Of a stretch of 7,785 nt of DNA, positions 1-7,784 are shown piece after piece. The position numbers were made by a program, and so were the translations under genes. Each line of letters opens with the position of its first letter. The stretch's first letter is position 1. The stretch is from JBFLXN01 sp040755715 [NCBI: Candidatus Edwardsbacteria bacterium] (GTDB lineage: Bacteria > Edwardsbacteria > AC1 > JBFLXN01), in contig JBFLXN010000131.1 in assembly GCA_040755715.1 (NCBI GenBank), positions 1 through 7,785 of the forward strand, given 5' to 3'. Under the pieces are notes generated by a model. The model was not told the DNA's origin, ran no database searches, and saw nothing but the letters and a program-made list of their open reading frames with translations.

Positions 1-2
1 AA

Positions 3-1556
3 GATACAAATGATTTTTGTTTCTATGTCAATGTGCGTGGAACAGACGGTAAGAACTACTATCTTGAATATCATCCTTATGAACCGGGACTTTCTAAATG
101 GTTTGATGGATACGATACCTGGTATGCAATTTACGGTATTGGCACGCAATACTGTGATGGCTATTGGCACACCATTCAGCGGGATTTAAATACAGATTTG
201 CTCAATGCTTACGGAACATACCCGCGATATGTTAGGTGGTTCTGTCTCCGGGGAGATTATTGGGTGGACGATATTGCGGTTAGTTCAGTTCCTTTTGGTT
301 ACAATATCGAATGGTGGGATTTGGCAATAACAGACGGACTCACTCCAACAGGCACCAGAATGTATGGAGTAACTGTCCGCACAAATGACGCAATTGGTGA
401 CCACTATACTAACGAAAATATTGTCTTGCGAGACAACTTAAACTATACTGTCACTTCCGGCAGTTACCTTGAATACGACATCCGTGCGAATCAAGATAGT
501 CCCTTGCGTGGCTCAGTTCAATTAGAATTTACCGATGGAACTGGCGATGCCAAATTCAGTTGGGGGAGTATGCTTAATGACCAGAACAATCTCTTAGGAC
601 AATGGCCCACTGTTTTACCTTATGTCAATCAGTGGTATCACAGGGTAATTCCACTTTCAAATTTTGCCGGAAGGGTTATTAAGAAAGTCTTCTTTATGAC
701 TAATGATTCACCAGACATTACCACCGGTGCGGCAACGCATACCTATTACTGCGATGATATTAAGATAGACGGCATCCCAATTGGTACGCCCTCTGAAGAT
801 ACACAGATTGCAAAAGGAACAGGAGGATATGTAGATTTATGGACGAAGACAGTGAAAAACTTTGAAGGAGCGGTAAATCCAACTGAGGGGAATAATTTAG
901 ATGCAATCTTAGTCTGCACGAAACCTGTAACTGGAGACCACTGGGCTTTGACTACATTAAAGGATAATGTAAATATTCCCATTCCGACCTGGACTACCAT
1001 CAGACCATATTATCTCATCTATGACATCAGAGCGGGGCAGACATCAAATATGCGTGGTTCTATCCAACTTCAATTCACTGATGGAACTGTTAGTTCCAAT
1101 TACTGGAGAACGACAAAAGACCAGAACGGAAGACTTGCGGAGTGGAATACAAATTTGAACTCAGTCTATTTTAATCAGTGGTATCATAGAGAAATTCCGC
1201 TTACTGTATTTAAGGGAAAGACCATCAAACAAATTTTCTTCATGGCAAATGACGAGCCGGGTATTTCTCAAAGAGAAACAGATATTTATTACTGCGACAA
1301 TGTGCGAATTACGAGAGGCATCCTTCCTGTTGCTCTTGCCAAATCAGAACTTGCCACTGCTTACAACAACTCTCGCAAACTGGCTCTGAGCAAAGACGGC
1401 ACACTGCATCTGGTCTACACAGATAGAGATAGTGTTTTTTACACCTATTCCAAAGACAAAGGTCAGAATTGGGCAAGTTCGGAAAGAATTGGGGAGGGTG
1501 GATTTCCAGCCTTAGCCCTGGATTCACAGGGTCATAGATTCATCGCCCTTTTTTAA
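3..1556 (+). CDS. Partial, 3'-truncated repeat protein with beta-sandwich-like modules and an Asp-box
   Basis: The frame is open to the left window edge, so the true start is outside; the GTG at 33 is an internal Val codon. About 517 residues are visible. The first ~95 look like one Trp/Tyr/Gly-rich beta module (GDYWVDDIAVS at its end). Two copies of a ~182-residue module follow; each contains YDIRA, RGS(V/I)QL(E/Q)FTDGT, NQWYHR(V/E)IPL and YYCD(D/N). After the second copy comes a sialidase-like segment with an Asp-box, SKDKGQNW (S-x-D-x-G-x-x-W), and then PALALDSQG. Asp-box proteins normally carry several such blades, but this one stops 7 residues later with the tail HRFIALF. That tail lies in the overlap with the end of the convergent recombinase gene, so I infer that the 3' part was cut off by insertion. 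Similar proteins are extracellular or surface-attached and may bind glycans. The substrate is unknown and no signal peptide can be seen because the start is missing. It may be a non-functional remnant. Confidence 0.8.
   Translation, partial: DTNDFCFYVNVRGTDGKNYYLEYHPYEPGLSKWFDGYDTWYAIYGIGTQYCDGYWHTIQRDLNTDLLNAYGTYPRYVRWFCLRGDYWVDDIAVSSVPFGYNIEWWDLAITDGLTPTGTRMYGVTVRTNDAIGDHYTNENIVLRDNLNYTVTSGSYLEYDIRANQDSPLRGSVQLEFTDGTGDAKFSWGSMLNDQNNLLGQWPTVLPYVNQWYHRVIPLSNFAGRVIKKVFFMTNDSPDITTGAATHTYYCDDIKIDGIPIGTPSEDTQIAKGTGGYVDLWTKTVKNFEGAVNPTEGNNLDAILVCTKPVTGDHWALTTLKDNVNIPIPTWTTIRPYYLIYDIRAGQTSNMRGSIQLQFTDGTVSSNYWRTTKDQNGRLAEWNTNLNSVYFNQWYHREIPLTVFKGKTIKQIFFMANDEPGISQRETDIYYCDNVRITRGILPVALAKSELATAYNNSRKLALSKDGTLHLVYTDRDSVFYTYSKDKGQNWASSERIGEGGFPALALDSQGHRFIALF
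309..1310 (+). repeat. Tandem duplication of a ~182-codon module
   Basis: Two tandem copies lie inside the repeat protein, roughly 309-767 and 828-1310. The best-conserved blocks are offset by exactly 546 bases: YDIRA...FTDGT, and NQWYHR...IPL...FF(M)(T/A)ND. At DNA level the copies still share aatcagtggtatca at 627-640 and 1173-1186. The N-terminal third of each unit is much more diverged than the core. Confidence 0.8.
1516..1556. other. Predicted attachment-site junction (attL or attR) of the integrated element
   Basis: Large serine recombinases commonly lie next to one attachment site of their element. Here the host frame loses its Asp-box character after LDSQG, and the recombinase frame ends in the same bases. 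A perfect 5-bp inverted repeat (CCCTG at 1516-1520, CAGGG at 1527-1531, 6-base spacer) sits at this spot and is encoded by the host-like part. The exact crossover bases cannot be fixed without the empty site or the other element end. Confidence 0.5.
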
Positions 1557-3035
1557 CAACTCTAAATCTAGGTTCTTTTGAAAAGCAGGAAAGAAATAGA
1601 GATTTATTTCTATTGTTTCTTTGCTTATTTTGATTGACTCAACAAGTTGCTCAATTAAACTGCGTTTCTCTTCAAACGTCATCATTTCCTGCAATGCTGT
1701 AAAGTTTTTTACTTGATTCATTACAAAATCAAGACTGTTTTCTTTAACTTTGAGAAAAACAGATTGACCTTCAAGAGTTGCTTTCTCTTGTTTTAATTGC
1801 TCTCGTCTTTCTTCAAGGACAGAGACTTTGTCTTTAAGAGTTGTGTCATCAATTAGTTTATTGAAATGTAGCCCTATCAATTTGTCTATTTCTTGTTCGT
1901 TCTTTGCTATGCTTCTTTTTACTATCTCTATTTCTTTATCAATCTCTTTTAATGTCTTGTTGTTAGGCAGTTCTGCGATTAAATCTTTTGGATTAAATTC
2001 ATAATGTTTTAATGTTTCTATAAAAACATTATCAAGTTCTTGCATGTAGATTTTTGCACCACATTTGCATTTGTAACAAGGAATTGCTCTGCCATAGGCA
2101 TAGCCATACATCTTGCTGTTGCATTCTGAACATTGAACAAGACCGCTTAACAAATATGCTCTTGGCTTTTTTGTTCTTGGTTTTGCGTTCTTCTTGAGAA
2201 TTAAGTTTGCTTGAGTCCATAGTTCTTCTTTGATAATAGGCTCAACTTTTAGCTCAACCCAGTCCTCTTTTGGCTTTTTATCCCAGCCTTTGCCTTCACC
2301 TCTTGATTTTGTATGATTGAGAATATGGATTCCTTTAGATGTTGAGTCTTGGAGCAGTCTTCTTACTGTTGAATCTGTCCATAGTTTTTTCTTTCTTGTG
2401 CGATAGCCTGCTTGATTCATAAGCCTTGCTGTTGTCTTTATTCTCTGACAATTGATAAAAGTTTCAAACAACTTTTTCAAGATAAAGGATTCCTGTTCAT
2501 TGATTATGAGTTTCTTTTCTTGCCATTCATAGCCAAAAGGTGCTTTTCCGCCTAATGGTCTTCCAAGTTTTGCTCTAACAGGAACACTCGCCGCAACTCT
2601 ACTTGCAATTTCTTCTCTTTCCCATTGAGCCAGACAAGCTATAAAATTGAACAAAAGCCTACCACCAGGAGTGCTCGTGTCTAATGATTCTTGCAAGGAA
2701 ACAAGGTCAGCATCATATTTTCTAAAATAGTCTGCAATTTCAATCAACTCTTTGACATTTCTTCCAAGCCTTGCTAATTTTGAAAATATCAATGCTTTGA
2801 TATGACCTGTTCTAATATCATTGAACATTCTCTTTGTTTCAGGATGCTCAATAACTGACTTGCCTGAAGTTACAAGCAAGTATTTTTCAGCTACTTGCCA
2901 GCCTTTTGCATCTGCATAGCTTTTTGCTCTCGCCTCGTGAACTCGAGGTGATTCGTTTTCATCCTGCATATCAGTTGAAACACGAATCCAGATGCCTACT
3001 GGTTTTGTGTTGGAATTCATAGGTTGAACTGCCAT
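1524..3035 (-). CDS. Large serine recombinase (site-specific integrase)
   Basis: This 503-residue protein catalyses integration and excision through a serine nucleophile. Domains in order: a resolvase-type catalytic domain (about 11-155) with RVST, where Ser20 is the likely nucleophile and Arg18 a helper, SKLARLGRN with Arg89 and Arg92, and the long helix GRLLFNFIACLAQWEREEI (125-143); a recombinase DNA-binding domain (about 160-290, GGKAPFGYEW near 162); a zinc ribbon (Cys302, Cys305, Cys320, Cys323/325); and a Glu/Lys-rich coiled coil (about 362-425). The length is normal for the family. The start is ambiguous between Met1 and Met6: neither has a good Shine-Dalgarno site, and both precede the catalytic strand. 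The gene faces the truncated host gene and overlaps its last 33 bases. The final codons (ESMTL and the stop) lie in the predicted attachment junction. All key residues are present, so the enzyme looks intact. Confidence 0.95.
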   Translation of the reverse strand: MAVQPMNSNTKPVGIWIRVSTDMQDENESPRVHEARAKSYADAKGWQVAEKYLLVTSGKSVIEHPETKRMFNDIRTGHIKALIFSKLARLGRNVKELIEIADYFRKYDADLVSLQESLDTSTPGGRLLFNFIACLAQWEREEIASRVAASVPVRAKLGRPLGGKAPFGYEWQEKKLIINEQESFILKKLFETFINCQRIKTTARLMNQAGYRTRKKKLWTDSTVRRLLQDSTSKGIHILNHTKSRGEGKGWDKKPKEDWVELKVEPIIKEELWTQANLILKKNAKPRTKKPRAYLLSGLVQCSECNSKMYGYAYGRAIPCYKCKCGAKIYMQELDNVFIETLKHYEFNPKDLIAELPNNKTLKEIDKEIEIVKRSIAKNEQEIDKLIGLHFNKLIDDTTLKDKVSVLEERREQLKQEKATLEGQSVFLKVKENSLDFVMNQVKNFTALQEMMTFEEKRSLIEQLVESIKISKETIEINLYFFPAFQKNLDLELLKKGDESMTL

Positions 3036-3113: not shown

Positions 3114-3296
3114 CTAACGTACTGAGACAATGATAATTATCCCAGCTACAAGTCCAACGATGAAAAGCCCCCACAATGTTGGATTCGAGGTTGAGAACCT
3201 GTCTGAACCAGACACAGCAATACAGAATAACGCGAAACCAGAAAATCCACTAAGGATGAACAGACAAATTGCTACGAATCTAAGGATTCCCTCCAT
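3114..3296 (-). CDS. Small two-helix membrane protein, function unknown
   Basis: This is a 60-residue protein with two hydrophobic segments, about 5-29 and 41-59, joined by a short polar loop (SDRFSTSNPT, 31-40). It should sit in the cytoplasmic membrane as a hairpin. The start is well supported: AAGGAG at 3305-3310 (minus strand) lies 8 bases before the ATG. It is followed after 78 bases by the recombinase gene on the same strand, so the two could share a transcript. I do not recognise a family. Small membrane proteins of this size on mobile elements include holin-like, toxin and entry-exclusion proteins, but nothing in the sequence picks one. The overlapping plus-strand open frame lacks these membrane segments and is treated as a shadow. 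Confidence 0.65.
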   Translation of the reverse strand: MEGILRFVAICLFILSGFSGFALFCIAVSGSDRFSTSNPTLWGLFIVGLVAGIIIIVSVR

Positions 3297-3681: not shown

Positions 3682-3685
3682 TTAA
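3401..3685 (+). pseudogene. Possible coding remnant on the opposite strand, unknown family
   Basis: A plus-strand frame stays open for 94 codons from the stop at 3398-3400 to TAA at 3683-3685. From about 3488 it reads like real protein: acidic and aromatic residues (GDSDTNGYKEYEIDPEFF), then RHVACAVARIFWEEC and the end SELMHDPLF. There is no ATG, GTG or TTG near the start. The first in-frame ATG is at 3554, leaving only 43 residues, and it has no Shine-Dalgarno site. Its stop overlaps the stop of the convergent 72-residue gene. It may be the 3' remnant of a gene whose front was lost when the element was rearranged. It could also be a chance frame, because the opposite strand is open over much of the same stretch. 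I do not recognise a family. Confidence 0.25.
3603..3633. repeat. GC-rich alternative hairpins sharing one arm
   Basis: CTGTGGC occurs twice (3601-3607 and 3627-3633) with GCCAC (3612-3616) between them. GCCAC can pair with GTGGC at 3603-3607 across a 4-base loop. It can also pair with GTGGC at 3629-3633, where the inner AGC (3619-3621) and GCT (3626-3628) extend the stem around an ATGC loop with a 2-base bulge. The two folds exclude each other. The patch is clearly GC-richer than its surroundings. Confidence 0.4.
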
Positions 3686-3900
3686 TCATAGCCGTTACCT
3701 AGGAATGCCATCTTTACGTTTTCATATCCTACGAGAAAAGCTAGCCCACTTCTAGCTGAAGGAATCTCCCATAGTTCCCCCATTTCGTGGTAGACCACTA
3801 CATCATCCCCAAACTTTTTCTTGAACTTTTCTTCTAGTTCTCTACCTTTTGGAGTAGAAGGGTCTACTCTTAATTCAATCTTGTCAGATAGATCTGTCAT
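3682..3900 (-). CDS. Small soluble protein of unknown function (72 aa)
   Basis: The start is set at the ATG at 3898-3900 because AAAGGAG lies 5 bases upstream. A longer reading from a TTG at 3945 would add 15 Lys-rich residues that merely translate the ribosome site. The protein begins MTDLSDKIELRVDP, continues with a charged helix (about 17-30, GRELEEKFKKKF), and ends with beta-rich hydrophobic stretches (DDVVVYHE, LAFLVGYENVKMAFLGN). No membrane segment, cysteine or catalytic motif is visible. It follows the 709-residue gene by 73 bases on the same strand and could be co-transcribed or have its own promoter in that gap. I do not recognise a family. Its position suggests a companion of the large protein, but this is inference only. 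Confidence 0.7.
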   Translation of the reverse strand: MTDLSDKIELRVDPSTPKGRELEEKFKKKFGDDVVVYHEMGELWEIPSARSGLAFLVGYENVKMAFLGNGYD

Positions 3901-3973: not shown

Positions 3974-6103
3974 TCATAAGAATTTCCTCACTTCTTGAAT
4001 TAATTCTTCGGTAGTTTCTACGATTAAGAATCCGTATTTCTGTTGAAGCTCGGAAAGATATGGTTTTTCTTTTTTCTTGTTCAATAACTGCTGGGCTATT
4101 TCAGTAGCCAACTCTTGTCTTTTCGCAGCATGAGACTCATCAAGAGCTCCACTCAAAGAGGGATTCAAATGAAGATTGTGCCTCAATAACAGCTCGTGCA
4201 ATTGCTTGCCAAGTTCTCTTGGATCCTGTACAGCTAAAAGATTTTGAATTGATAACAATCCACAGTCTCTAGCTCTTTCAAGGTTTCTCCAATCTTCTTC
4301 TGCGCAAACTATTTTCCCCTCCTTTCTAAGTATGGGAATTAACTCATTCCAAAACCAGTAATGTGGTATCATCGTAATATCCTCTTTAGGACAACATATT
4401 ATCGCAGTGGGTTTGCCCTCGTCTATTTTCAAATTTAATTCCCGCAAACGTCCGATATGATGTAATTCCTCTTGCACACCAGTTGCTATTTTTCCTTTAT
4501 AAAGTGGTCGAAACGCAATCACAATATCGGATTGTTCCACTAGCTTATGGTCGCGTGTATTGACTTGTGCAGTAACTTGTTCGATGAAATGCTTCAACAA
4601 AGAAGCATTTTTCTCATTTGGTATGAGATCCCGATCGTCTTCATTCCACCCATATGGGAAAACGTAATGACCTGGCCGCTCGGCAGGTTCTGGTTCCGCC
4701 CAGAGAAGGTCATCTCTTGTTCGCGTTCCTTTAGACCATCGTTTGTATAGTTTCCCTGTTTCTGGCCACATCCTTAATTCGTCCACGGTAGCAGGTTCCA
4801 TAACCGTAAAATCTGATTTAATATGGTTAACAAGTTCTTGACACTGAGCAATTATTCTTTCTGCTTCGTCTACAAGTCCTTTCTTAATCATCTGTCTCGG
4901 CTCGGTAATTGGATGAGAAAAATATGCTATTCGTTTCTTTGAGTATAATAAATCAAATAGAGTTGTCAGCGGATGCTTAATAGGGAGGAGATAATGCTTA
5001 ATTCCACAATAATCAGCGCAGTGTCCTGAAACAACGATTTCCGTCATTCGCCAGTCTAATATGCGAAACAATTGAAACAAAGAATCCTCCAGGGACTCTG
5101 GCATATCAAAGAATTGCTTTTTTATCAATCTATTTTGGCAATCGTAAATATCATCGATGAATGTTACTAAATGCTTTGGTTTAAGTGCTGCCAGTGCAGA
5201 GTAATCTACTGGAGATATATACTCTCGCGTTTTTGAACTATAATAACAGCAATGGAATGTAAGGATTATGTCTTCTTTTTTTATTATTTGTTTAGCTTTT
5301 TCTTCGATTCTTGCGATAGCTTTCCTCCATATTGACTTAAGATACTCTCTCGGAAGCATTGGTACACGATAACTAGGCTCGTAGACCTTTGGGTAGAGAT
5401 TAGTTGCAGCATGGTCTCCCTCTTTTATTACTTCGTCGTCTATAGATAAGAAAGAAAACCTTTTACTTCTTGTTGCGGAATACTTTACAAACTTTTCTAG
5501 GGAACTCTTTATACCTGTTCCTGCTATTCCTGTTATTAAGAAAATATTACCCATTGGATGATGAATCGCTCCTGTAATACCGAACCATCTTGCCTCGCTG
5601 AAAGCATCATTGCATTCACCGGCTAGCCTGACAGCTTCGTTAAGTTGAAGTATTGCATTTTCATATTCGCTTTTTCTCCAGCTTACGATTGCTTGGTTGC
5701 CAAATGCTTGGCACAGAATATTCTTGTCTTGTATTGACTGAGCATTTTCAATGCAAGCATGGAGCCGTGTGAGAGCTTCGGCATAATTTGATGTTTTCCA
5801 TGAAGCTATTCCAAGCCATAAGTTGAATTGTGCCTCAAGTCCTTTGTCTTTTGGTTCTGGTAAAGCATCCAAAGAAGTTGTAGCAAGACTTTTTGCCAAA
5901 CTGAACTGACTTAGCCTGTCAACTATGTTTAGAATCTTAATCTGAATAACAGACTGAACAAAACTTCTAAGTCTGTAGTGGTTTTCAAAGTAAGCTCTGA
6001 TTTTCTGCGCAATCTGTGTTTTAGAAATAGTCTCTAATTCAGTTGAGTCTTGTTTTCCGAGGTAGCTTGCAACTATGTTTGTCAAAGGATAGCATAATCT
6101 CAC
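3974..6103 (-). CDS. Multidomain protein: TPR-like region, P-loop kinase-like domain, nucleoside deoxyribosyltransferase-like domain
   Basis: A 709-residue frame begins at GTG 6101-6103. Residues 1-75 are helical and unrecognised, possibly the end of a winged-helix or STAND-type module. Residues 88-186 resemble TPR repeats (GIASWKTSNYAEAL, then AIVSWRKSEYENAI). Residues 185-380 look like an adenylate/nucleoside-kinase fold: strand NIFLIT, a P-loop variant GIAGTGIKSS (192-201), SIDDEVI, and HLVTFIDDIYD (311-321). Residues 390-630 resemble nucleoside 2-deoxyribosyltransferases: RIAYFSHPIT (391-400), then SDIVIAF with Asp526 and TGVQEE with Glu545/Glu546, where that family has its catalytic Glu. 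The C-terminal 60 residues are charged. The predicted role is a cytoplasmic enzyme that binds ATP and acts on nucleosides or nucleotides; the substrate is unknown. The upstream 88-residue gene ends 21 bases before. The start is weak: there is no Shine-Dalgarno site and no other Met before Met184 (ATG 5552-5554), which may be the original start. Domain calls are from motifs read by eye. Confidence 0.7.
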   Translation of the reverse strand: MRLCYPLTNIVASYLGKQDSTELETISKTQIAQKIRAYFENHYRLRSFVQSVIQIKILNIVDRLSQFSLAKSLATTSLDALPEPKDKGLEAQFNLWLGIASWKTSNYAEALTRLHACIENAQSIQDKNILCQAFGNQAIVSWRKSEYENAILQLNEAVRLAGECNDAFSEARWFGITGAIHHPMGNIFLITGIAGTGIKSSLEKFVKYSATRSKRFSFLSIDDEVIKEGDHAATNLYPKVYEPSYRVPMLPREYLKSIWRKAIARIEEKAKQIIKKEDIILTFHCCYYSSKTREYISPVDYSALAALKPKHLVTFIDDIYDCQNRLIKKQFFDMPESLEDSLFQLFRILDWRMTEIVVSGHCADYCGIKHYLLPIKHPLTTLFDLLYSKKRIAYFSHPITEPRQMIKKGLVDEAERIIAQCQELVNHIKSDFTVMEPATVDELRMWPETGKLYKRWSKGTRTRDDLLWAEPEPAERPGHYVFPYGWNEDDRDLIPNEKNASLLKHFIEQVTAQVNTRDHKLVEQSDIVIAFRPLYKGKIATGVQEELHHIGRLRELNLKIDEGKPTAIICCPKEDITMIPHYWFWNELIPILRKEGKIVCAEEDWRNLERARDCGLLSIQNLLAVQDPRELGKQLHELLLRHNLHLNPSLSGALDESHAAKRQELATEIAQQLLNKKKEKPYLSELQQKYGFLIVETTEELIQEVRKFL
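4587..4610. repeat. Perfect 9-bp inverted repeat inside the 709-residue gene
   Basis: AAATGCTTC (4587-4595) and GAAGCATTT (4602-4610) surround a 6-base loop AACAAA. On the plus strand a TTTTCTC-like run follows, so it resembles a weak terminator for transcripts against the gene. On the sense mRNA it would be a local hairpin. It may be a coding coincidence. Confidence 0.4.
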
Positions 6104-6124: not shown

Positions 6125-6391
6125 CTAAACTAATTTTTTCCTTGTTTTCCAGTTGAGCCAATCTCTGTCTTCTTGTTTTTTGATGTCACTTATTATGCTC
6201 TTAAGAATGTTTATGAGTGATCTGTTTGGCAGAGGAGTGAGATAGAGCATACGAGAGAGAAGGTATGTAAAAGCTAGATCTTTCTGTTCTTCACTCAATT
6301 TGAGCCCAGCAATAGATTTTAGTATTTTCTTCCATTCGTTCGTAATCTTGGGTCTGGCTCTCTCAATTTCTTGACGCCACCTATCTTTCAT
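6125..6391 (-). CDS. Small basic helical protein, function unknown (88 aa)
   Basis: The ATG at 6389-6391 is supported by GGGAG at 6397-6401, 5 bases upstream on the minus strand. The protein is rich in Lys, Arg, Glu and Leu and looks all-helical: EIERARPKITNEWKKILKSI, then KLSEEQKDLAFTYLLSRMLYL, and a strongly basic Trp-containing end (WLNWKTRKKLV). There is no membrane segment or signal peptide. The charge and helices would fit a DNA-associated or partner-binding protein, but no motif proves this. It lies between the 82-residue gene (85 bases upstream) and the 709-residue gene (21 bases downstream), all on the same strand, so an operon is likely. I do not recognise a family. Confidence 0.6.
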   Translation of the reverse strand: MKDRWRQEIERARPKITNEWKKILKSIAGLKLSEEQKDLAFTYLLSRMLYLTPLPNRSLINILKSIISDIKKQEDRDWLNWKTRKKLV

Positions 6392-6476: not shown

Positions 6477-6725
6477 TTATAATGATACAACTTTTTGCTC
6501 GGGTTTGTCAACAAAATTTTCTTCTAAGCGATTTTTTTCTAGCCTTGATATTGCTCTTGCTATTATCTGTTTAATGAACTTGGTTCTCATCGCGAGTTCA
6601 GCTTCACTAAGTTGACTGAAGGATAAAATTATTCTCCTTGGGCGAGAGAGTGATGCAAGTCTCTTGTCTTTGCTACGAAAAGATGGCTCTGTTTCAATTA
6701 TGACTTTTTCTGCTAAGTTTCTCAT
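6477..6725 (-). CDS. Small charged protein downstream of the HerA-like ATPase gene, function unknown (82 aa)
   Basis: It starts at ATG 6723-6725, 18 bases after the stop of the HerA-like gene. There is no clear Shine-Dalgarno site, so translation may depend on coupling to the upstream gene. It begins MRNLAEKVIIETEPSF, has a basic stretch (FRSKDKRLASLSRPRRI, 16-32), then a long charged helix (about 38-70, LSEAELAMRTKFIKQIIARA) and a polar tail. No membrane segment, cysteine or known motif is visible. The position and strand suggest the same operon as the ATPase. The plus-strand open frame over the same bases is less credible because it would start against the operon direction with no ribosome site. 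Family unknown. Confidence 0.5.
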   Translation of the reverse strand: MRNLAEKVIIETEPSFRSKDKRLASLSRPRRIILSFSQLSEAELAMRTKFIKQIIARAISRLEKNRLEENFVDKPEQKVVSL

Positions 6726-6743: not shown

Positions 6744-7784
6744 TTAAGTTAGGTCTCTGAATTGCTTGAGAGTGAGAATTTGGATTTTTTCTTGTGTGGT
6801 TTTATCAAATTCTTTTATCAAGGCTTCTCTTAAGGCTTGCTTCTTTACCATTGCTTTTTCTTCATCTTCTACTATGGCATTGTCCTTATTACTCGTTGCT
6901 ACTATAATTATTTGAACATTCTCGTAGCCTGAATTGAGGTCTCTTTTAATATTCTTTATCTCGTCTTCTGGCGTCGTTGTCACAGATACTTCTACAGCAC
7001 ATTTTGCCTTGTCGCTTCTGTAAATGCCTAAGTCACAGTCATAGCCTTTATTTTTGCCTTCAATCAAGACTTCATAGCTTTTTTCATAGAAAGGTTTGAT
7101 GAGCTTATGGACGATTAAAGCATGTAAAAAGCCAGATTTGCCTTCGTAGGAGTTACTTGGTTTGAAGCCATTCTCATGAAGAAAGTTTTTGCCTTCTTCT
7201 GTTAACTCAAGGTAAGAGCCAAGTGAACCTCTTCCTTTCTTCAACTTGATTTTGTATTCATTAACAAAATTCTTCTCAAGAAGAATTTTTTTAATTCTGT
7301 CTGCATCAGCAACGCTATGAAAATTCAAGTTATCTATGTGTTCTGTAAACGTGAGAAATGAATTTGTCGCTATTTCATTCAGCAATTGCAAAATTTTTCT
7401 TTTATCCGAGGTTTCTGCCTCTTGCTTTATTTCTGGCATTGTCTTTGCCTTGGGCTTTTCTTTTTCAAGTTCTTGAAAAATCATATTAAGAACTCTTTGC
7501 TTTTCCTCTTCTGGAATTGGTTTGCAATCAAATCTCTGATTTATTAGCTCAAAGATTTTTTCTTCGTCTATATCTTTGTTAACTTTGAACTCAGGAACAT
7601 TAATCTTGAAAATCGGTGTGCCTGGTCTTGAGTCTAACTTCACTATCGCCTCACCGACTTGAAGTGAATCAATCATATTGATTGTTTCTTCGTTGAATTT
7701 GAGAGACATTGATTCTGATATCTGTCTCATTTCAGTTGGGTCTGTCTTGAAAATGATTTTTGCTCCTGCCATTGCTCTTGCTCC
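6744..7784 (-). CDS. C-terminal part of a HerA/TraG-like ATPase with winged-helix and nuclease-like tail (start outside window)
   Basis: The frame stays open beyond the ATG at 7770-7772 to the window edge (GARA precedes it), so this Met is internal and the ATPase core lies outside. Counting from that Met, residues 1-60 (AGAKIIFKTDPTE, MIDSLQVGEAIVKL) resemble the closing strands of HerA/DUF87 or TraG/VirD4-type ATPases. A charged linker (about 65-125) follows. Next is a winged-helix-like segment (about 126-205, ending SLGSYLELTEEGKNFL). The last part (about 212-342) resembles a PD-(D/E)xK nuclease fold: HALIVHKLI, GYDCDLGI with Asp245 and Asp247, AVEVSVTT with Glu261, and VQIIIVAT. The usual Lys of the ExK motif is Ser263, so it may be a DNA-binding relic rather than an active nuclease. 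On a mobile element such an ATPase could pump or handle DNA in transfer. It heads the visible operon and the 82-residue gene follows after 18 bases. Confidence 0.65.
   Translation of the reverse strand, partial: GARAMAGAKIIFKTDPTEMRQISESMSLKFNEETINMIDSLQVGEAIVKLDSRPGTPIFKINVPEFKVNKDIDEEKIFELINQRFDCKPIPEEEKQRVLNMIFQELEKEKPKAKTMPEIKQEAETSDKRKILQLLNEIATNSFLTFTEHIDNLNFHSVADADRIKKILLEKNFVNEYKIKLKKGRGSLGSYLELTEEGKNFLHENGFKPSNSYEGKSGFLHALIVHKLIKPFYEKSYEVLIEGKNKGYDCDLGIYRSDKAKCAVEVSVTTTPEDEIKNIKRDLNSGYENVQIIIVATSNKDNAIVEDEEKAMVKKQALREALIKEFDKTTQEKIQILTLKQFRDLT
7266..7289. repeat. Perfect 11-bp inverted repeat inside the HerA-like gene
   Basis: AAAATTCTTCT (7266-7276) and AGAAGAATTTT (7279-7289) are separated by only CA, giving a 24-base near-palindrome followed by more T on the plus strand. 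It encodes KILLEKNF on the minus strand. It could act as a protein-binding site or an antisense terminator-like hairpin, or be chance in AT-rich coding sequence. Confidence 0.4.

Follow-up and report, generated by a model that had tools for sequence, protein, structure and literature searches.

A possible P-loop and deoxyribosyltransferase-like cargo protein on a serine-recombinase element of Candidatus Edwardsbacteria

What kind of protein is encoded by a long minus-strand frame on a mobile element of Candidatus Edwardsbacteria, and do its parts form one working chain or a join of two genes? The window, i.e. the whole stretch of 7,785 nucleotides that was analysed (contig JBFLXN010000131.1), contains at 3974-6103 on the minus strand an open frame of 709 aa, which the ORF listing starts at a GTG and which has a TGA stop four codons 5' of this start; the coordinates and the length assigned to it by an earlier, sequence-only reading were right. 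With a probability of about 45%, we read the 709 aa protein as cargo of a serine-recombinase element in which an archaeal-adenylate-kinase-like P-loop domain (residues 184-387; 4943..5554, minus strand) is followed by a deoxyribosyltransferase- or DrHyd-type domain (residues 388-645; 4169..4942, minus strand). Such a protein would fit a known kind, the nucleotide-centred multi-domain cargo proteins, the identities of both domains being putative. If both domains are true, a single chain would hold a nucleotide-kinase-type switch and a glycosidase-type output. The mobile element would in that case carry a compact module centred on nucleotides, one that could be taken directly into tests.

The mobile-element context, which the sequence-only reading had also claimed, was supported by a large serine recombinase (1524..3035, minus strand), likely the integrase of the element. 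Pfam matched it to Resolvase (E 3e-28) and Recombinase (E 2.5e-17) and PHROG to an integrase (E 3.6e-102), and the NCBIfam models CcrB and XisF matched below their own cut-offs. Relatives of this recombinase were found in 3312 plasmid records, all at less than 60% identity, and in 2 of 40 genomes of one phylum, the best being 29% identical. It is encoded on the same strand as the 709 aa frame and adjoins a truncated host gene (1..1556, plus strand; ORF listing and alignments) that is open at the window start. The host gene carries two inner repeats, 48% identical to each other, and a search of the species genomes with an alignment of the repeats turned up just one relative, a 55% identical protein of Caldithrix sp. 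RBG_13_44_9; the host frame was matched somewhere by 20 of the 40 genomes of the phylum of that species, mostly over its last 100 residues. Because this frame ends 10-21 residues past the last aligned residue where six related loci run on, the alignments fit an insertion of the element near 1520-1556, though local alignments may also end for other reasons. The element extends past the window, whose end was reached before the other end of the element.

The first of the two proposed domains begins with a P-loop-like stretch read from the sequence, G192-IAGTGIKSS (5501-5530, minus strand). Its G192-I-A-G-T-G197 reproduces GxxGxG and is followed by an isoleucine, with the lysine one place later than in GxxxxGK; the archaeal adenylate kinases compared also mostly lack a lysine directly after GxxGxG. 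None of the curated families of Pfam, NCBIfam or PHROG covers this domain, residues 184-387 giving only AAA_17 at E 0.23 in Pfam, and a search of the PDB by sequence with the P-loop part gave nothing of note. Foldseek, run on an AF2 single-sequence model of residues 184-387 that is of low confidence (pLDDT 47.6, pTM 0.46), gave the top rank to OdinAK, an archaeal adenylate kinase that took 8 of the 11 top rows and accounted for 11 of the 50 matches listed, with TM values of 0.32-0.36, and the best E value on this low-confidence model was 1.4e-3, none of the matches listed being at or below 1e-3. VIA-align on the Foldseek candidates returned Rossmann-like folds with Z up to 6.1, among them response regulators and isomerases, and no adenylate kinase stood among the 50 entries listed, a result that leaves room for that family. 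No match in the BFVD structure search reached E 0.001; the second in rank was a guanylate kinase at E 0.036.

An adenylate kinase HMM made from five sequences, one of them a designed protein, scored 1.8 bits at residues 253-313, on the DTHST...LNPD region, a score reached by 19 of 2000 shuffles, and when it was run on 193 open frames, of which 100 were scored, the 709 aa frame came second. The five pairwise scores against adenylate kinases were reached by 2, 50, 95, 1 and 4 of 500 shuffles, two of the five pairs showing no signal above shuffles. Comparison with the archaeal enzymes (OdinAK, PDB 7owe; Methanococcus voltae, PDB 1kht) showed that in both cases the P-loop is close to the N terminus, preceded by a short lead of similar length, and that the order of elements is alike, residues 253-313 weakly matching the HST...LNPD region. 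However, the histidine of the DTH motif is kept here and the aspartate is not (LTFH), an extra C-terminal domain is present, and the similarity is very low. The P-loop kinase-like region of the sequence-only reading thus stood in part: the position of OdinAK in Foldseek and the shuffle counts of the HMM speak for it, while the want of a curated family, the pLDDT of the model and the VIA-align result speak against it. Together, sequence and model suggest weakly that residues 184-387 resemble an archaeal adenylate kinase, a domain that would bind a nucleotide, either as a kinase or as a sensor.

The second domain was assigned by an HMM and by motifs read from the sequence. The set of NDT/DUF4406-type proteins consisted of 21 viral loci, four phage proteins taken from the 25 listed of 45 matching phage records, and two Calditrichota proteins; the HMM used for the shuffle counts held 24 non-identical sequences, L012 and L013 being left out (26 with them). 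This HMM scored 7.5 bits over residues 389-448 (single-sequence E 1.6e-4), which 2 of 2000 shuffles reached, and the 709 aa frame ranked first among the 193 open frames of at least 80 aa, of which 126 were scored. When the N-terminal half of the model was used alone, the score was 4.1 bits (4 of 2000 shuffles) and the frame was second behind an unrelated one; when the C-terminal half was used alone, the score was -0.4 bits (322 of 2000 shuffles) and the frame was 17th of 101 scored frames. At this non-significant score, the C-terminal half laid its G...E motif on T541-GVQEEL (541-549). Three motifs were recognised by eye in the order Y394-FSHP, S525-D526 and T541-GVQEE546, and it is mainly the S525-D526...G542-VQE-E546 motif, read in this way, that led us to name E546 (codon 4466-4468, minus strand) as the candidate nucleophile; the title of a reference cited in PMC3710099 gives Glu98 as the nucleophile of a known NDT.

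Pfam and NCBIfam gave no curated NDT-type family for the 709 aa protein, and the AF2 model of residues 388-645 (pLDDT 38.9) was too poor to use. The NDTs, DNPH1, TIR and SLOG domains are treated as related groups in PMC9503650, PMC11204291 and PMC13174449. Comparison with DUF4406/NDT-type proteins and DNPH1/Rcl (DrHyd superfamily) showed that YFSHP stands for their Y-[FL]-A-[HA]-P and that an S-D and then a G...E with a candidate nucleophile follow in both; however, about 60 more residues separate the two halves here, the scores are below the curated cut-offs, and the C-terminal half is not significant. Of the deoxyribosyltransferase-like region claimed by the sequence-only reading, residues 389-448 held up by shuffle count and rank, and neither a Pfam or NCBIfam family nor a usable model came in its support. 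Pfam and structure prediction, applied to the two domains separately, thus yielded a weak adenylate kinase likeness, no curated family and poor models. From its sequence, the region 388-645 shows a weakly supported resemblance to nucleoside deoxyribosyltransferases and DrHyd proteins, and it would cleave or transfer the base-sugar bond of a nucleoside, a nucleotide or NAD by means of E546. The tail that follows (residues 646-709; 3977..4168, minus strand) is without a domain match; in Pfam, the C-terminal fragment 3974-4300 brought up nothing beyond PDDEXK_1 (E 0.076) and UBA_Crd2 (E 0.15).

Both labels would be wrong if the protein were a divergent one with other Rossmann-like folds, as the absent curated matches and the generic Rossmann matches of VIA-align (Z 5-6) could indicate; we regard this as unlikely, for each of two separate models finds its own family where it would be expected, and in the expected order.

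The kinase/NDT part had no relative in any of the viral contigs, genome contigs, plasmids, phages and 40 genomes searched. Viral contigs gave none when the whole 709 aa protein, 4190-4960 or 4919-5560 was the query. The genome contigs gave none by exact short peptide patterns, a search that shows close relatives only because such patterns were used. In plasmids and phages, tblastn at E 0.01 found no relative of the 709 aa protein; with 4000-5560 as the query and E 10 as the limit, one plasmid record (E 5) and nine phage records were obtained and judged to be noise; the top phage record (E 0.8) was from a Salmonella phage, and its stretch lies in no listed frame. When the query lacked the TPR part, the 40 genomes of one phylum gave one weak match (E 0.024) containing three stops. 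Since the kinase/NDT part has no relatives in these collections, there were no gene neighbourhoods to survey. A pairing of a P-loop domain with an NDT-type domain was not found described in the portions of open-licence PMC full texts that were consulted.

The same two domains could instead form an enzyme of nucleotide metabolism that joins a (d)NMP kinase with either a nucleotide N-hydrolase or a deoxyribosyltransferase and serves salvage or a modified-base pathway. Adenylate kinases and the NDT and DNPH1 relatives are metabolic enzymes, and the NDT-like references come mostly from phage contigs, some of them being annotated as nucleoside deoxyribosyltransferase. However, no metabolic gene adjoins the 709 aa frame within the window and no salvage operon was seen there, the P-loop is off register, and no relatives were found, so that a metabolic role appears improbable to us.

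The reading of the protein as a two-domain cargo protein leaves the front part to be explained. This part (residues 1-183; 5555..6103, minus strand) consists of TPR-like repeats, as shown by Pfam at residues 95-167 and by BLAST to TPR proteins, and the TPR-like region of the sequence-only reading was borne out. On the 709 aa protein, ANAPC5 matched at E 4.3e-5 with 23.9 bits, over its cut-off of 23, and TPR_12 matched at E 0.0012, below its cut-off, both at residues 95-167; on residues 1-188 alone, ANAPC5 rose to 26.5 bits (E 6.7e-6). Among 40 genomes of one phylum, 5 gave matches to the protein, six in total, and all six were of the TPR type and lay within residues 22-202. When these were re-aligned with BLAST, the earliest start was residue 21 and most alignments ended at 185-187, the exceptions being one that ended at 195 and one that ended at 166 and was accompanied by a second alignment to 187. 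One TPR is made of two helices, and in the final repeat here the sequence breaks off once the first helix is complete (…GITGAIHHPMGN); at this break the TPR partner L006 continues with SMGNYSQA, and the residues found here, IFLITGIAGTG, are the first strand and the P-loop of the next domain.

The break coincides with M184, whose ATG (5552..5554, minus strand), a candidate for the original start of the kinase/NDT protein, is the first of the frame and the only one of its N-terminal third; the in-frame start codons within residues 1-183 are GTG at 1 and TTG at 7, 69 and 78. The adenylate kinase of M. voltae starts 8 residues before its TG and M184 lies 7 residues before T191-G192, and the near equality of these distances gives M184 the position that an original start would have. 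An AGGAG is located 14 bases upstream of M184, which is a long spacing; the pairing energy of its ribosome-binding site is -6.7, as compared to -7.1 for the best 5% of random sites, and that of GTG 1 is weaker (-4.7). In codon use, the TPR part was not separable from the remainder of the 709 aa frame, and the codon-position G+C pattern of all parts was like that of other element genes. That the TPR homology in most alignments ends at 185-187, at M184, where a stand-alone adenylate-kinase-like protein would begin, casts doubt on a role of the TPR part as a sensor. From the sequence, we slightly favour the view that the TPR part is left over from a different gene and was joined in frame at M184 over the view that it is a partner-binding front; an assembly join at M184 may also be the source of the junction. 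If the TPR part is a remnant, the case would caution against reading a sensor-effector architecture from an open frame, which can mimic one.

The protein could be read in two further ways, according to how the parts on either side of the junction are valued. If they formed one functional chain, with a TPR sensor, a P-loop switch and an NAD- or nucleotide-cleaving output, the 709 aa protein would be an abortive-infection effector borne by the element. Mobile-element cargo is a frequent location of defence genes, and the frame is continuous over all 709 codons. NDT-like domains are, moreover, proposed or known as defence effectors: AbiJ-NTD1 fused to NDT is described in predicted defence proteins with a proposed abortive role (PMC3710099), the NDT-like effector of the type II retron Retron-Eco1 hydrolyses NAD (PMC12405507), and DrHyd domains are NADases in conflict systems (PMC9503650). 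The AbiJ-NTD1-NDT fusions have an NDT-type domain behind an N-terminal partner, as is the case here; however, the partner here is P-loop-like with TPR, and neither Pfam nor PADLOC gave a match to AbiJ-NTD1. An NDT-like output, as in Retron-Eco1, is also proposed for the 709 aa protein, but no reverse transcriptase was found among the window proteins scanned with Pfam and no Rfam match in the window, the element extending past the window. Against the abortive-infection chain, the sole PADLOC match among five window proteins scanned was BrxA at E 0.02, which fell on the 709 aa protein; the absence of relatives means that no defence neighbourhood was available, and the TPR homology breaks mid-repeat at M184. 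Within the window, nothing ties the 709 aa protein to defence, and we hold such an effector to be quite unlikely. In the other of the two readings, a TPR remnant was joined by deletion to a kinase/NDT gene and the whole is a decayed chimera without function. The mid-repeat junction and the lack of an ATG before M184 agree with decay, but 709 codons without a stop and a codon-position pattern that is uniform with the other element genes do not, which makes a functionless chimera distinctly doubtful. A conflict protein in which the adenylate-kinase-like P-loop would sense or charge a nucleotide and then switch on a DrHyd-type glycosidase destroying NAD or nucleotides, an optional TPR front recognising a phage or partner protein and the flanking 88 and 72 aa genes serving as possible partners, is very unlikely.

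Two of the proteins met in the comparisons have architectures of their own. L009 (G033), a frame of 820 aa, has numerous TPR repeats that follow a region resembling, by eye, a SIR2-type domain; proteins that combine a SIR2-type domain with TPR are often defence-related. L013 of Calditrichota (G002), a 797 aa frame, has by eye an NDT/TIR-like domain together with another of similar look and with the P-loop GQKGTGKS, and it matched PF05014 at E 3.7e-4, below the cut-off. It shares with the 709 aa protein an NDT/TIR-like domain and a P-loop in one chain, but the order is opposite and the P-loop is, by eye, of another type, and homology to the 709 aa protein was indicated by no test.

The window has no tRNAs and no Rfam families at the gathering score. 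Upstream of the 709 aa frame lie, all on the minus strand, an 88 aa gene with a good ribosome-binding site (6125..6391), an 82 aa frame (6477-6725, ORF listing) and a 342 aa frame (about 6744-7784, ORF listing) that is open at the window end. The 88 aa protein gave sub-threshold Pfam matches to Ribosomal_L27_C (E 5.9e-4, 19.8 bits, under the cut-off of 25) and to DUF1539, and searches for relatives of this gene and of the 342 aa gene gave nothing useful. A promoter-like site with 11 of 12 bases is located at 6511-6482, upstream of the 88 aa gene; 16 promoter-like sites were found in the region as compared to 14.7 expected, which is no excess over chance. The first 60 residues of the 342 aa frame presumably correspond to the C-terminal tail of a HerA/TraG-type ATPase. 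Its C-terminal part, which contains by eye a PD-(D/E)xK-like stretch, was matched weakly by SAVED models of Pfam and NCBIfam (E 0.023 to 0.086, below the cut-offs). Downstream of the 709 aa frame, a 72 aa gene (3682..3900, minus strand) has an ATG with a strong ribosome-binding site and is counted from this ATG, the ORF listing having 87 aa from a TTG. A 60 aa frame at 3114-3296 (minus strand) also has a strong ribosome-binding site (-8.3), and its sequence is hydrophobic and membrane-like.
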